Assembly (NCBI GenBank): GCA_026418535.1
Contig: JAOABC010000002.1
Coordinates: forward strand, 186,001 to 250,000
Direction of reading: 5' to 3'
Source: Hydrogenothermaceae bacterium
GTDB lineage: Bacteria > Aquificota > Aquificia > Aquificales > Hydrogenothermaceae
Length of the DNA: 64,000 nucleotides
The translations under genes and the position numbers were made by a program. Under the pieces are notes generated by a model that did not search any database, was not told the origin of the DNA, and saw only the letters and a program-made list of their open reading frames with translations. The first letter of the stretch is position 1. Every line of letters starts with the position of its first letter. Below are positions 44,398 to 49,946 of this stretch, in pieces.

Positions 44398-45236
44398 CCT
44401 GAAAGTAGAGCCTGCCTCATAACTTCTACAGGAGCCTCTCTCCCAGTCCATATCTCAAAGGACCTGACTCCCTGATACAGGAGCATAGGATATCCATCCT
44501 GGTACTTACAGCCAATAGCCTCAGCTTTCTGTAGCAGTTCTGTCTTTTTGTATATAATATCTACCACAGTGTGATGGGGCTTTAACTTTCTATAGTCAAA
44601 CAAAGGGCTGTCATTATCTTTTAAACCTACAGAAGTTGTATTTACTATTATATCTACATACTCCAGGACCCTGTTTATCTCTTCCAGTCCGATAGGGTTA
44701 ATAATCTTATCTACTAACCTATAATGTTCCTTAAATTTTTGAACAGTGTCCACAGCTCTCTGGACTGTCCTGTTAGATAGATAAATTTTATCTACTCCAT
44801 CTTTAAGCAATCCGTAGATTACAGCCTTTGAAGCTCCTCCAGCTCCGATGACTAGAACTCTCTTACCCTCTATCTTCTCCTCTAACTCTTTAAGACCTTT
44901 TACAAAACCGTGGTAATCTGTGTTGTATCCAATTAGATAACCATCTAAGTTTTTTATGGTGTTTAAGGCACCGACTACTCTAACTTCCTCAGAGAGTTCA
45001 TCTACGTACTTCAAAGACTCTTCTTTAAAAGGGATAGTTATATTGACACCTTTTATATCTAATATCTTTATAGACTCTATAGCTTTCTGTAAGTTTTCTG
45101 GTTTTACCTGGAAAGGTATGTATACCGCATTCAGACCAAGCTGTAAGAAGGCAGCAGTCTGAAAGGTTGGAGATTTTGAGTGTTTTACTGGATAACCGAA
45201 TATACCATAAACAGCTGTCTCTCCATTTAACTTCAT
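44394..45236 (-). CDS. aroE: Shikimate dehydrogenase
   Basis: AroE reduces 3-dehydroshikimate with NADPH in aromatic synthesis. A 280-aa protein: YGIFGYPVKHSKSPTFQTAA (shikimate site), GVNITIPFKEESLKYVDE with catalytic Lys, GYNTDYHGFVKGL, VLVIGAGGASKAVIYGLL, NTTSVGLKDND and DIIYKKTELLQKAEAIGC. ATG 45236 shares its A with the NFU stop (TAATG), better than the longer frame to 45269. It ends 4 nt into the convergent oxidoreductase gene. Confidence 0.95.
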   Translation of the reverse strand: MKLNGETAVYGIFGYPVKHSKSPTFQTAAFLQLGLNAVYIPFQVKPENLQKAIESIKILDIKGVNITIPFKEESLKYVDELSEEVRVVGALNTIKNLDGYLIGYNTDYHGFVKGLKELEEKIEGKRVLVIGAGGASKAVIYGLLKDGVDKIYLSNRTVQRAVDTVQKFKEHYRLVDKIINPIGLEEINRVLEYVDIIVNTTSVGLKDNDSPLFDYRKLKPHHTVVDIIYKKTELLQKAEAIGCKYQDGYPMLLYQGVRSFEIWTGREAPVEVMRQALLSG

Positions 45237-45487
45237 TATGCTATATTGTACTTCTCCTCCCCGATACAAACAGACTTAACCCAAGGTAAACTCTCCTGGA
45301 TAGTGTAGATAACTAACTCCTTCATAGTGATGTCTGCTACAGGACACTGCTGACATGTCCCGTATAGTTTCAGGTATACATCTTCATTCTCTACCTTTAC
45401 AAGCTCGATGTTGCCTGTATCTTTCATGAGTGCAGGTCTTATTCTTTCCAAAATCTCTTCAACTTCTTGCTCTTTACTTATCACCAT
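45236..45487 (-). CDS. NFU (NifU C-terminal) domain protein
   Basis: An 83-aa stand-alone NFU domain, an Fe-S cluster carrier: VEEILERIRPALMKDTGNIE, KLYGTCQQCPVADITMKELV with the cluster CxxC, and SLPWVKSV. It belongs to the run TusA, DUF1858-like, NFU behind iscU and the IscS-like gene, supporting a role as a downstream cluster carrier. aroE is translationally coupled to it. Confidence 0.9.
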   Translation of the reverse strand: MVISKEQEVEEILERIRPALMKDTGNIELVKVENEDVYLKLYGTCQQCPVADITMKELVIYTIQESLPWVKSVCIGEEKYNIA

Positions 45488-45499
45488 CCAACAAACCTC

Positions 45500-45721
45500 T
45501 TAGGTTTTGTTTAGTATTCTGTTTATTCTTTGTATAACTTTTTCCCTCTCTTCCTGAGGGATATTAACAAGTTTAAGGGCACCTTGCAAACTTAACCTCT
45601 TAAAGGTTATCTCTTCAAGTCTCTCCTTATATAAGAAGGATAAGTAGGGTCTGACTATCTCCTCTACTTGAGGATACTGAGAAAAGATATCTGCTATCTT
45701 ACTTTCTACAGTTATCCTCAT
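45500..45721 (-). CDS. Small DUF1858-like protein
   Basis: A 73-aa protein: ITVESKIADIFSQYPQVEEI near the start and ITFKRLSLQGALKLVNIPQE later. The layout (short strand, helix, xYPxxxE, long helix) fits DUF1858. The Cys pair found in many DUF1858 proteins is absent. DUF1858 domains often sit beside or are fused to hybrid-cluster and sulfur-transfer proteins, which fits this neighbourhood. Its ATG overlaps the tusA stop by 4 nt. Confidence 0.65.
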   Translation of the reverse strand: MRITVESKIADIFSQYPQVEEIVRPYLSFLYKERLEEITFKRLSLQGALKLVNIPQEEREKVIQRINRILNKT

Positions 45722-45951
45722 ACTTTCCTCACGTAAAAATGATAAACTCCGTCTTCCTCCTTGTACCCTAAAAACTCATTCCCCGTAGCCTGACACCAAG
45801 CTGGTACATCCTGAATAGCTCCTTCGTCATCTGCTAATAATTCTATTATCTGCCCCTTCTCTGCCTTTCTTGAAACTTTTGCAAGCTCAGTTATAGGTAT
45901 AGGACAGTAAGTTCCTGTTGCATCATGGACTATGTCAGCTTTTATATCCAT
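45718..45951 (-). CDS. tusA: TusA-family sulfur carrier
   Basis: A 77-aa TusA-fold protein with DATGTYCPIPITELAKV, where Cys in the CPxP motif carries persulfide. DEGAIQDVPAWCQATGNEFL supplies the second Cys near 53 seen in many sulfur-oxidiser homologues. It probably passes sulfur between a donor and the PP-loop enzyme directly upstream (1 nt gap). A role in dissimilatory sulfur trafficking rather than tRNA thiolation is possible. Confidence 0.92.
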   Translation of the reverse strand: MDIKADIVHDATGTYCPIPITELAKVSRKAEKGQIIELLADDEGAIQDVPAWCQATGNEFLGYKEEDGVYHFYVRKV

Positions 45952-45952
45952 C

Positions 45953-46993
45953 TCATATCCTCCATCCTTCTAATACTCTGTCCTCTATACCTCTTCCCGT
46001 CAAGACCATCTCTTCACCGGAAGGGTCACTATAGAGTATATCTATTTTACCATCTTCCAATTTAGAATATCTCCCTATTATGTCTGGAATAATAGATAGG
46101 TCTTCTTCCGGTATATGGTCTACACTAAAAGGTTTTGCTAGAACAATAGGTCCCTTTCCTATTACCTCAAAAAAGTGATATCTACTCCTGAAACCGTAAA
46201 GAAAATTGTTCTCTCCTTCATTCCTAGATACTATAAGTTTCGTTTTAGCAGGTAGCCTGAAATGTCTGCCTACAGTCAGGAGGGTCAAGTCTTCCATGGT
46301 TATTCTACTTTCTATTTTTACAGCTTCCCTGTACTTTTTTGCATAGTTCTCGTCCGTAAGATAACAACAGCCTCCACCTGGATGTTCAAACTCATCTATC
46401 CCTAGTTGTTTTAAAAGCTCTATCTGTCTCTTTCTACTTCTTCCAACTATCCCCTCTAACTTATCCCTGTCTACCCAACCTTCTATTTCAGGGATGGTAG
46501 GTTGTAATCTTTTTGCAGAGAGAGGTTTTAAAACAAGACCCTCTAAACCAGAATCTCTCTCTATTATCTTCATAGCTTGTAAATGCTGGCTCATTGGTCT
46601 TTGTCCTAAAACCTCCCCAGTTATAACAAATTTTGCTCCTATCTCTTCCATTATCTCCTTAGCTTTTTTGAACATGTAGATGCGACAGTCTATACATGGA
46701 TTTACATTTGAGCCATATCCATACTTCGGACTGGTTATAACGTTAAGATAGCCTTCTGATATATCTACAATCTCTATTGGAAATTTGTATTTAGCTGCAT
46801 ACTTTAGGGCAGGGTTTATATAGGAGGTTCCATCCTCTCTCTTTTCCCCTCTTCTTCTCTTTGTCTCAGTTATGCAAAAACCTGTATAGAAATGGACTGC
46901 TAATATGTCTATACCTTGTTTTTGGATGAGCTTGATAGCGAGGGTACTATCAAGCCCTCCGGAGTAAAGTGCTACCGCTTTTACTCTCTCCAT
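45953..46993 (-). CDS. PP-loop ATP pyrophosphatase, MnmA/ThiI-like thiolation enzyme
   Basis: A 346-aa protein. The PP-loop is VALYSGGLDSTLAIKLI at the N-terminus. A CxxC lies in NPCIDCRIYMFKKA and a CC in GGGCCYLTDENYAKKYRE. It is related to tRNA 2-thiouridylases (MnmA/ThiI superfamily) but not a standard member of either: there is no THUMP domain and the C-terminal third is unlike MnmA. ATG 46993 shares one base with the iscU stop (TGATG), preferable to the longer frame to 47047. Between iscU and tusA it most likely activates a substrate for sulfur insertion. Confidence 0.85.
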   Translation of the reverse strand: MERVKAVALYSGGLDSTLAIKLIQKQGIDILAVHFYTGFCITETKRRRGEKREDGTSYINPALKYAAKYKFPIEIVDISEGYLNVITSPKYGYGSNVNPCIDCRIYMFKKAKEIMEEIGAKFVITGEVLGQRPMSQHLQAMKIIERDSGLEGLVLKPLSAKRLQPTIPEIEGWVDRDKLEGIVGRSRKRQIELLKQLGIDEFEHPGGGCCYLTDENYAKKYREAVKIESRITMEDLTLLTVGRHFRLPAKTKLIVSRNEGENNFLYGFRSRYHFFEVIGKGPIVLAKPFSVDHIPEEDLSIIPDIIGRYSKLEDGKIDILYSDPSGEEMVLTGRGIEDRVLEGWRI

Positions 46994-47454
46994 CACCCTA
47001 CGTGTTCTAAAGCTACCTGTTCTTCTTCGTGGTCCTCTTCTATGCACTCTGGTATTCTACTAGCCTCTTCCATTCTACCTTGCTTTAGAAGGTAGTCCTT
47101 TATAGCCACATGTAGAGTTTCCAACCCAAGGTTTGTACAGTGTATCTTCTGAAATGGTAGTCCACCAAGCTCTTCGAAGATCTCTTTGTAGGTTAGATTC
47201 AGTGCATAATCTATAGGCTTACCCTTAACCATCTCTGTAAGGACTGAAGAAACAGCTATAGCAGAGCCACATCCAAACGTTTTAAACTTAACGTCAGTTA
47301 TTACGTCCGTATCTTTGTCCACCTTGATAGTAAAGAGCATAGCGTCCCCACATGATGGATTACCACACTGACCGTAGCCGTCAGGGTTGGGTATCTCCCC
47401 TAAGTTCCTTGGGTTCATAAAGTGGTCCATAACCTTATCTGTATATTCAAACAT
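46993..47454 (-). CDS. iscU: Fe-S cluster scaffold IscU/NifU-N type
   Basis: A 153-aa scaffold: MFEYTDKVMDHFMNPRNLGE, the Cys block YGQCGNPSCGDAM, FKTFGCGSAIAVSSVLTEM and KIHCTNLGLETL. The three cluster Cys and the Asp of CGD are present; an extra Cys precedes the first. ATG 47454 has AGGAGG 8 nt upstream, better than the longer frame to 47511. An acidic tail (CIEEDHEEEQ) is added at the C-terminus. The IscS-like gene upstream is its expected partner but looks catalytically dead. Confidence 0.93.
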   Translation of the reverse strand: MFEYTDKVMDHFMNPRNLGEIPNPDGYGQCGNPSCGDAMLFTIKVDKDTDVITDVKFKTFGCGSAIAVSSVLTEMVKGKPIDYALNLTYKEIFEELGGLPFQKIHCTNLGLETLHVAIKDYLLKQGRMEEASRIPECIEEDHEEEQVALEHVG

Positions 47455-47534: not shown

Positions 47535-48749
47535 TCATCCCTTGAACTTTGAGGCCCTCTTCGTAAACTCTTCCCAGTTTTCCGGATTGAAAGGAGATAT
47601 CTCTCTGAGCCTTGCTATAACCTTAGGATACTCTTCTATGATGTAGTCTATATCCTCCTCGATGTTGTCTCTACCTAGAGAGAAGACTATAGAGCCATTA
47701 GATGCCTCCTTTTCTACTCCTACTGCAGCAAGAACGTGAGACTGTTTTAATGCGTACGATACACAGGCTGAACCAGAAGCTGTGTAAGTTTTCTTTATGT
47801 TCAACATAAGTAGCATAGCCTCTCCCTCTATATACACGACGATTAGGGATAAGTGGTTTGGAAGTCTCTTTTCCGGATGTCCGGTGAACCTTATATGGGG
47901 GATCCTTTCCTCTATTCCCTTCTTAAGTTTATCCCTCAAGTACTTTAATCTGTTAACCCTATCGTCCATCTCCTTTACAGCAAGCTCTGCAGCGGCACCC
48001 ATACCAACTATACCCGGTACATTCTCAGTACCTGCTCTTCTCCCCCCTTCCTGTATACCTCCCTCTATGAGAGGCTTTAGTCTTATACCTTTCTTTACAT
48101 AGAGTCCACCTATACCTTTAGGGGCATAAAAGTAGTGTCCTGTAAAGGATGCCATATCCAATCCCCAATTTTCCACATCTACCGGATAGTGTCCCACGGC
48201 AGCAGCTATATCTGAATGAAAGACTACCCTTGGGTTTTTCTCCTTAACAGCAGCAACTAGTTGGGGCATATCCTGTAATGTGCCTATCTCCCTGTTTGCA
48301 AACCCAACAGACACCAGTATAGTATCATCCCTAACAGCCTCTGCAAGCTTGCTAGGGTCTATAACACCATACTCATCAGGTTGAACCTCTGTTATCTCAA
48401 ACCCCTCTTTTTCCAAAGTCTTACAGGAGTGGAGTATAGAGTGGTGCTCTATAGAAGAGACCACTATATGCTTTCCTCTTCTTCCAGGAGCTTTGGCGAA
48501 TCCTTTTATGGCAAGGTTGTTTGCCTCTATAGCTCCAGATGTGAAAACTATCTCCTCTGGATTGTTAACGTTTAAAAGCTGAGCTACCTGTTCTCTGGCT
48601 CTGTTTATAGCCTTCTTAGCCTCAACACCCATTTCGTGTAGAGAAGTTGGATTGCCGAACTTTTCCTTAAAGAAAGGCATCATAGCCTCTATAGCTTCAT
48701 CACATACGGGAGTGGTAGCTAAATGGTCTACGTAAACTCTTCTATCCAT
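47535..48749 (-). CDS. IscS/NifS-like protein lacking the PLP lysine
   Basis: A 404-aa cysteine desulfurase homologue, full length and alignable throughout. The sulfur-carrying loop is intact: Cys329 in TASGSACVSYALKQSH. The PLP site is not. Where IscS has the Schiff-base lysine (GHK) this has Tyr206 in SFTGHYFYAPKGIGG. The Thr of GATE is Ile74, the Gln of VDAxQ is Ala183, and the Asn of NNE is Arg153. The His stacking on PLP (H102) and Asp180 remain. Archaeoglobus IscS is a known case with the lysine lost. It may serve as a structural IscU partner or accept sulfur from elsewhere, not as a desulfurase. Confidence 0.88.
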   Translation of the reverse strand: MDRRVYVDHLATTPVCDEAIEAMMPFFKEKFGNPTSLHEMGVEAKKAINRAREQVAQLLNVNNPEEIVFTSGAIEANNLAIKGFAKAPGRRGKHIVVSSIEHHSILHSCKTLEKEGFEITEVQPDEYGVIDPSKLAEAVRDDTILVSVGFANREIGTLQDMPQLVAAVKEKNPRVVFHSDIAAAVGHYPVDVENWGLDMASFTGHYFYAPKGIGGLYVKKGIRLKPLIEGGIQEGGRRAGTENVPGIVGMGAAAELAVKEMDDRVNRLKYLRDKLKKGIEERIPHIRFTGHPEKRLPNHLSLIVVYIEGEAMLLMLNIKKTYTASGSACVSYALKQSHVLAAVGVEKEASNGSIVFSLGRDNIEEDIDYIIEEYPKVIARLREISPFNPENWEEFTKRASKFKG

Positions 48750-48750
48750 C

Positions 48751-49839
48751 TTAAGCTCCTTTTCTCGTCAATTTTTCTACTAATTTCCTTGCTATACTCA
48801 AGAACTCCTGAGTAACTGTGGAATCCTCTTTAGCAAGTACAACAGGTATACCAAGGTCAGAGAACTCCGCCACTTTAGGGTCTGTTGGTATCTGACCCAA
48901 GAGCTCTGTGGAGTAATCCTTAGCCACATCTGCTGTTTTACTCTTGCCGAATATCTCGTACTTCTTACCGCTGTCCGGACAGATGAAATAACTCATATTC
49001 TCAACTACACCTATTATAGGGATCTGTACCTCATTAAACATCTGTATTCCCTTCTTAACGTCTATCAAAGCCACATCCTGAGGAGTAGTTACGATTATGG
49101 CACCGTCTACCTCAACTGTCTGTCCTATGGTTATCTGTATATCTCCGGTTCCGGGAGGAAGGTCTACAACCAAGAAGTCTAAGTTCTCTTCTCCCCAGTC
49201 TATATCAAACAGGAATTGAGTCAAAGCTTTGAAAAGGACAGGACCTCTCCATATAACAGGTGTGTCTTCAGATGGTAGTAGAAAACCTATGGACATCACC
49301 TTTACACCGTGAGCTTCAGGGGCGATTATCTTTGTCCCTTCAGGAGTTTCTTTGGCTATTACCTTTTTATCTTTAGCTCCAAACATAGTAGGACCACTTG
49401 GCCCATACATATCTGCATCTAGATATCCAACATTGTATCCAAGTCTTCTTAGAGCGGATGCTATGTTTACAGCTACTGTTGATTTTCCCACACCACCCTT
49501 CCCAGAGGCTACAAGAATAACCTTATCTACCTTAGGTATCCTTCTTCTGTTTTCGAAAGGGTTCTGAGGTGGAGGAGGAGGTGGTGGCTGTGTCTGTCTC
49601 TGGACTGGAGGTTCCTGACTGAACTCAACCTCTATATGCTTTGCTCCAAGGGGCTTTAATGTACTTTTTATCTTTTCCCTTAAATAGTCGTAGTACTTCT
49701 CAGATGGAGAGAAAATTTTTATATAAACATCATCTCCACTTATTCTTATATCCTTTATAATATCTGACAGAGAGAAACTAACACCTATCTCCTGTAAGGT
49801 AGTCCTTTTTAAAGCATCCATCACACCTTGTAAAGCCAT
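48751..49839 (-). CDS. mrp: Mrp/ApbC-type Fe-S carrier ATPase with N-terminal DUF59
   Basis: A 362-aa P-loop protein: DUF59 at about 1-80, a Pro-rich linker, the deviant Walker A ILVASGKGGVGKSTVAVNIA, DADMYGPSGPTMFG and VVDLPPGTGDIQ. Mrp proteins carry Fe-S clusters at a C-terminal CxxC; here it reads CPDS (Cys287, Ser290), so one ligand is missing. ATG 49839 with AGGAGG 5 nt upstream is preferred over 49887. It begins the minus-strand Fe-S/sulfur run, 1 nt before the IscS-like gene. Confidence 0.92.
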   Translation of the reverse strand: MALQGVMDALKRTTLQEIGVSFSLSDIIKDIRISGDDVYIKIFSPSEKYYDYLREKIKSTLKPLGAKHIEVEFSQEPPVQRQTQPPPPPPPQNPFENRRRIPKVDKVILVASGKGGVGKSTVAVNIASALRRLGYNVGYLDADMYGPSGPTMFGAKDKKVIAKETPEGTKIIAPEAHGVKVMSIGFLLPSEDTPVIWRGPVLFKALTQFLFDIDWGEENLDFLVVDLPPGTGDIQITIGQTVEVDGAIIVTTPQDVALIDVKKGIQMFNEVQIPIIGVVENMSYFICPDSGKKYEIFGKSKTADVAKDYSTELLGQIPTDPKVAEFSDLGIPVVLAKEDSTVTQEFLSIARKLVEKLTRKGA

Positions 49840-49946
49840 AAATACCTCCTCTTTTTTAGTTATGTTATAATAAACTTCTACCATCATTATACTATGATAG
49901 TTGTCAGAAAATAAGATCTTTTGGTCTTAAAAGGAGCTGAGATAAG

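Follow-up and report, generated by a model that had tools for sequence, protein, structure and literature searches.

Iron-sulfur (Fe-S) cluster assembly on the scaffold IscU is commonly described as requiring cysteine desulfuration. Escherichia coli IscS and human NFS1 are PLP enzymes with Lys206, Asn155, Gln183 and a substrate Arg. An IscS that lacks the lysine and stands beside IscU is already known from Archaeoglobus and Methanosarcina. According to PMC7585200, citing Pagnier 2014, the IscS of the anaerobe Archaeoglobus fulgidus carries Asp for Lys, is inactive and ligates the [2Fe-2S] cluster of IscU through a Cys. Likewise, IscS1 of Methanosarcina acetivorans is described as adjoining IscU and as being without the essential Lys, in an archaeon whose genome encodes another two IscS with complete sites (PMC7585200). 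In E. coli without IscS, H2S feeds IscU under anaerobic conditions (PMC13015791). Closest in sequence to the protein described here is a set of PDB entries: over 395 residues, 9WFY has the same sequence as the IscS of a genome (G061) taken to be Aquifex aeolicus VF5, and 9wep, 9wer, 9wew, 9wf8, 9wfb and 9wfe are mutants of A. aeolicus IscS that stepwise restore Asn, Lys, Arg, Gln and Thr. Another group therefore has this orthologue in hand; no paper on entries 9WEP-9WFY was found in the open literature.

An iscS-like gene beside iscU in Hydrogenothermaceae

The window, a stretch of 64,000 nucleotides from a Hydrogenothermaceae bacterium, contains an iscS-like gene in the order mrp, iscS-like, iscU, PP-loop protein, tusA, small protein, nifU-C and aroE, with the following features:

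48751..49887, minus strand: mrp/ApbC-type Fe-S carrier ATPase, directly upstream of the iscS-like gene; the mrp-iscS pair is common to Hydrogenothermaceae and Aquificaceae
47535..48749, minus strand: iscS-like gene without the PLP site, 404 aa (Pfam Aminotran_5, 243.9 bits)
46993..47454, minus strand: iscU, NifU_N scaffold (PF01592, 1.6e-50); start 47454 set from orthologue comparison
45953..46993, minus strand: PP-loop tRNA-thiolation-type protein (ThiI/MnmA-like plus NFACT-R_2 domain), in the same order beside iscU in an Aquificaceae genome (L300)
45718..45951, minus strand: tusA, candidate sulfur carrier (PF01206, 1.6e-22)
45500..45721, minus strand: small protein retained in the iscU-tusA operon; Pfam and NCBIfam gave no match
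45236..45487, minus strand: NifU C-terminal-type Fe-S protein (PF01106, 4e-21)

The iscS-like frame, separated from mrp by 1 bp, starts with ATG and has no internal stops, and the plus-strand translation is full of them. In Aquificaceae the mrp-iscS pair is kept, and iscU, the PP-loop protein and tusA form a separate block. The distance between tusA and iscU is about 1.3-1.5 kb in 9/9 Aquificales genomes where both coordinates could be compared. In Persephonella-type genomes (L100, L101, L105, L109), about 2 kb of other sequence lies between the iscS-like gene and iscU. A plasmid search returned only matches below 60% identity.

The AlphaFold2 model of the protein has a mean pLDDT of 92.3, and confidence is lowest (<50) at residues 328-333, as expected for a mobile loop. 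The best Foldseek match of the model is 4eb5, the A. fulgidus IscS-IscU complex (TM 0.91), so that the parallel with Archaeoglobus drawn in the initial annotation finds support both in this fold match and in the published account of the archaeal protein (PMC7585200). The 9W entries did not appear among the Foldseek matches, and the database searched (to April 2026) may lack them. The likeness to A. fulgidus IscS2 (4eb5, 4hvk; D199K mutant 4r5f) covers the fold (TM 0.91-0.97), the lost lysine, the lost substrate Arg and Gln and the retained loop Cys, and the archaeal protein forms the IscU complex; it differs from the window protein in having Asp rather than Tyr or Leu, in keeping Asn and Thr and in its separate branch in the tree. 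E. coli IscS and human NFS1 share the fold, the Cys loop and the IscU partner, whereas they have the PLP residues given above. The IscS/NifS equivalog models do not discriminate between these kinds: the window protein scores 471 bits against a cut-off of 530.75 for TIGR03402 and 380 against 643 for TIGR02006, and an intact paralogue (L001) falls short of both as well.

Conservation of the altered site

Orthologues were collected as 88 distinct Aquificales sequences from two families, 39 from Hydrogenothermaceae (with Sulfurihydrogenibium and Persephonella among the named loci) and 49 from a second family, read as Aquificaceae; some rows are partial or near-duplicate, and the counts are not fully independent. 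The comparison set consisted of 67 relatives picked for having the PLP lysine (the lysine set). The residues concerned are:

48528..48530, minus strand: codon 74, Ile replaces Thr/Ser of GATE (Ile in 88/88 Aquificales)
48291..48293, minus strand: codon 153, Arg replaces Asn of NNE (Arg in 88/88 Aquificales, Asn in 67/67 of the lysine set)
48201..48203, minus strand: codon 183, Ala replaces Gln of VDAxQ (Pro or Ala in 88/88 Aquificales, Gln in 66/67 of the lysine set)
48132..48134, minus strand: codon 206, Tyr replaces the PLP Schiff-base Lys (Tyr in 39/39 Hydrogenothermaceae, Leu in 49/49 Aquificaceae)
47763..47765, minus strand: codon 329, mobile-loop Cys (SGSAC) retained, invariant in all groups
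47685..47687, minus strand: codon 355, Val replaces the substrate-carboxylate Arg (Val in 88/88 Aquificales, Arg in 66/67 of the lysine set)

The alignments show that the PLP lysine is missing in all 88 orthologues, each of which carries Arg153, Val355 and Cys329. They agree with the initial annotation, which had read Tyr206, Ile74, Ala183 and Arg153 and had described a PLP site lost with its Cys329 loop intact (loop Cys in 88/88), and they add two further losses to its list: at residue 355 the window protein has SIVFSLGR for the canonical SIRFSLGR, and Thr203 stands in place of Ser. Compared with PLP-dependent cysteine desulfurases, the protein has neither the Schiff-base lysine (Tyr206; Lys in 0/88 orthologues) nor the PLP contacts and substrate Arg (R153, A183, I74, V355). 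Compared with a PLP-less IscU partner of the A. fulgidus type, it has the IscS fold and the loop Cys, the lysine is replaced across the whole lineage, and iscU is co-encoded in the window and in Hydrogenothermaceae relatives but not in Aquificaceae. The A. aeolicus orthologue (9wfy; 68% identity) shows the same losses at Thr, Asn, Gln, Lys and Arg; it differs in having Leu at 206, and iscS lies away from iscU in the Aquificaceae loci examined.

Median pairwise dN/dS was 0.060 in Hydrogenothermaceae and 0.038 in Aquificaceae. Because 88/88 orthologues share the loss and dN/dS is about 0.04-0.06, the comparative data indicate that the loss of the PLP site is a fixed state under purifying selection and not decay, as had been claimed at the outset from the clean frame. 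Decay or a sequencing error, contradicted by the same figures and by the intact frame, has a negligible probability, and chance was ruled out by the conservation and the dN/dS.

Retention of His102, Asp180, His205 and Thr241 in the window protein, seen in the alignments, would suit an enzyme that is still an active desulfurase and holds PLP non-covalently. However, Lys, Gln, Asn and the carboxylate Arg have been lost together, and entries 9WEP-9WFE restore exactly these residues in A. aeolicus IscS. Putting the canonical residues back suggests that the wild-type protein is without activity, and a non-covalent PLP enzyme is highly improbable. Since the residues that would form the Schiff base, contact PLP and bind the carboxylate of cysteine have been replaced, and the replacements are fixed under purifying selection, PLP-dependent desulfuration of cysteine by the window protein appears very unlikely.

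Lysine-less IscS also occurs in other lineages. Asp stands at the lysine position in 30/30 archaeal loci closest to A. fulgidus IscS, and Val, Thr or Ser in 20 loci of the Endomicrobium order, these 50 being the best matches to lysine-less queries and not an unbiased sample. In both groups the substrate Arg is also lost and the loop Cys retained. In a tree built with the trait columns removed, in which Hydrogenothermaceae were represented by the window alone, Aquificales group with Endomicrobium (93/83), apart from the archaeal Asp clade. On this topology, the lysine would have been lost independently at least two times, and a single loss shared with Archaeoglobus was rejected because at least two changes are needed. 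The Val/Thr/Ser form is widespread in the Endomicrobium order (Elusimicrobiota; L276-L295), and most of these genomes carry a second IscS; the one of these that was examined, L241, has the lysine. A Nitrospirae IscS (L298:1128-2360), which branches beside Aquificales and Endomicrobium and has iscU and tusA downstream, keeps Lys and has Met for Gln and Leu for the substrate Arg; it may resemble an intermediate state.

Arg153 has not been seen in the archaeal or Endomicrobium lysine-less IscS, and its fixation together with Val355 in 88/88 Aquificales raises another reading, in which Arg153 and Tyr206 or Leu206 would bind a different anionic molecule, for instance one that donates sulfur, and Cys329 would react with it. 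On the other hand, Arg153 could merely fill an empty cavity, and residue 206 is not the same in both families. We know of no ligand for the former PLP pocket, which also counts against this reading, and a repurposed pocket must be considered improbable.

Possible sources of sulfur for IscU

A search for a desulfurase of the active type found one with all motifs intact in the window's own genome (G000:C24:145183-146292), and most Hydrogenothermaceae also have such a second, intact desulfurase. No other IscS/SufS-type protein was found in eight genomes, of which G008, G037, G041, G043, G049 and G053 are single-contig (the others are G010 and G051). A SufS hidden among the Aminotran_5 matches of about 100 bits was rejected, these being of the LFTPGPV type and read from sequence as serine-pyruvate aminotransferases. 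SUFBD (SufB/D) was found in 0/15 Hydrogenothermaceae and Aquificaceae genomes tested, each of which has one full-length IscU; the iscU of the window is the only NifU_N match in its genome. A hidden SUF system was also rejected, SUFBD being present only in a further family of the order (f3). The three genomes of that family (G038, G046, G050) have no IscS-like or IscU match and one short SufB/D-type match each, which suggests a minimal SUF system.

Additional paralogues were observed. One (L218:262-1458, G085) shares 46% identity with the window protein and shows GHYF together with a changed loop, NSPC. L296:7239-8432 (G084), L189, L191 and L221 contain a second lysine-less IscS/NifS paralogue, which has diverged much further and has GPSL and the loop STPC/SSPC; in L296 and L297 it neighbours a gene resembling homocitrate synthase, nifB and an aldehyde ferredoxin oxidoreductase, in what is apparently a cluster for nitrogen fixation.

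The explanation that we consider the best, and somewhat better than an even bet, is that a desulfurase-dead IscS has been retained as a cysteine-loop partner of IscU, with sulfur coming from sulfide or via TusA. The Cys329 loop would swing into IscU and supply either a persulfide or, as the A. fulgidus protein does, a thiolate ligand; the sulfur itself would arrive as free sulfide or be delivered to IscU by TusA, and would not come from cysteine desulfuration on the IscS-like protein. The evidence for it comprises the residue losses, the dN/dS values, the invariant Cys329, the fold match to 4eb5 and the adjoining, sole iscU. It is supported further by the lack of SUFBD, by the sole IscS-type protein in eight genomes and by tusA beside iscU. 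By analogy, the Cys ligand of A. fulgidus IscS (PMC7585200) and the H2S feeding of E. coli IscU (PMC13015791) would point the same way, as do the archaeal and Endomicrobium IscS, which have lost the same residue classes while keeping the loop Cys. The E. coli rescue is independent of IscS and anaerobic, and thus explains neither the kept loop Cys nor oxygen-respiring cells. The linkage of tusA to iscU fits a role of TusA. TusA is not a general requirement, because no TusA match was found in an Endomicrobium genome (G137) whose IscS is lysine-less.

Against this explanation stands the intact second desulfurase in the window's own genome, which leaves a cysteine route to persulfide open in this organism. 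Cys329 could then act in a persulfide relay, in which TusA or the second desulfurase would donate sulfane sulfur to it for transfer to IscU, so that the source would be cysteine or oxidised sulfur and not free sulfide. Such a relay agrees with the intact desulfurase in this genome and in most Hydrogenothermaceae and with the linkage of tusA to iscU, which both families share with the Nitrospirae relative. Against it stand the six complete (single-contig) genomes without a second desulfurase and the missing TusA match in the Endomicrobium genome G137, and tusA may instead serve the adjoining PP-loop tRNA-thiolation protein. A relay of this kind is rather unlikely, but deserves more credit than a repurposed pocket.

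Implications for the Aquificales

A dead IscS partner of IscU, the preferred reading, differs here from the archaeal cases in occurring in a bacterial order, in having Tyr or Leu with an invariant Arg153, in being the sole IscS-type protein of several SUF-less genomes and in its likely oxygen-respiring hosts. A COX1 (haem-copper oxidase-family) gene was found in 10/11 genomes; because this family includes nitric oxide reductases, oxygen use by some of the genomes that bear it is likely rather than shown. The heat-loving Aquificales probably build clusters with sulfur that is not taken directly from cysteine. More tentatively, and with the odds against it, a whole order of mostly oxygen-respiring bacteria might assemble its IscU clusters without feeding by a PLP desulfurase; the sulfur would come as sulfide or on TusA, and the pocket that once held PLP (Arg153, Tyr/Leu206) would have been remodelled for another function. 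In conclusion, a dead IscS is maintained under strong selection in two bacterial families, and several of their genomes encode no other IscS-type protein. This sets what IscS does structurally apart from what it catalyses and makes the Aquificales a natural system for testing the feeding of IscU by sulfide or TusA in oxygen-respiring cells.
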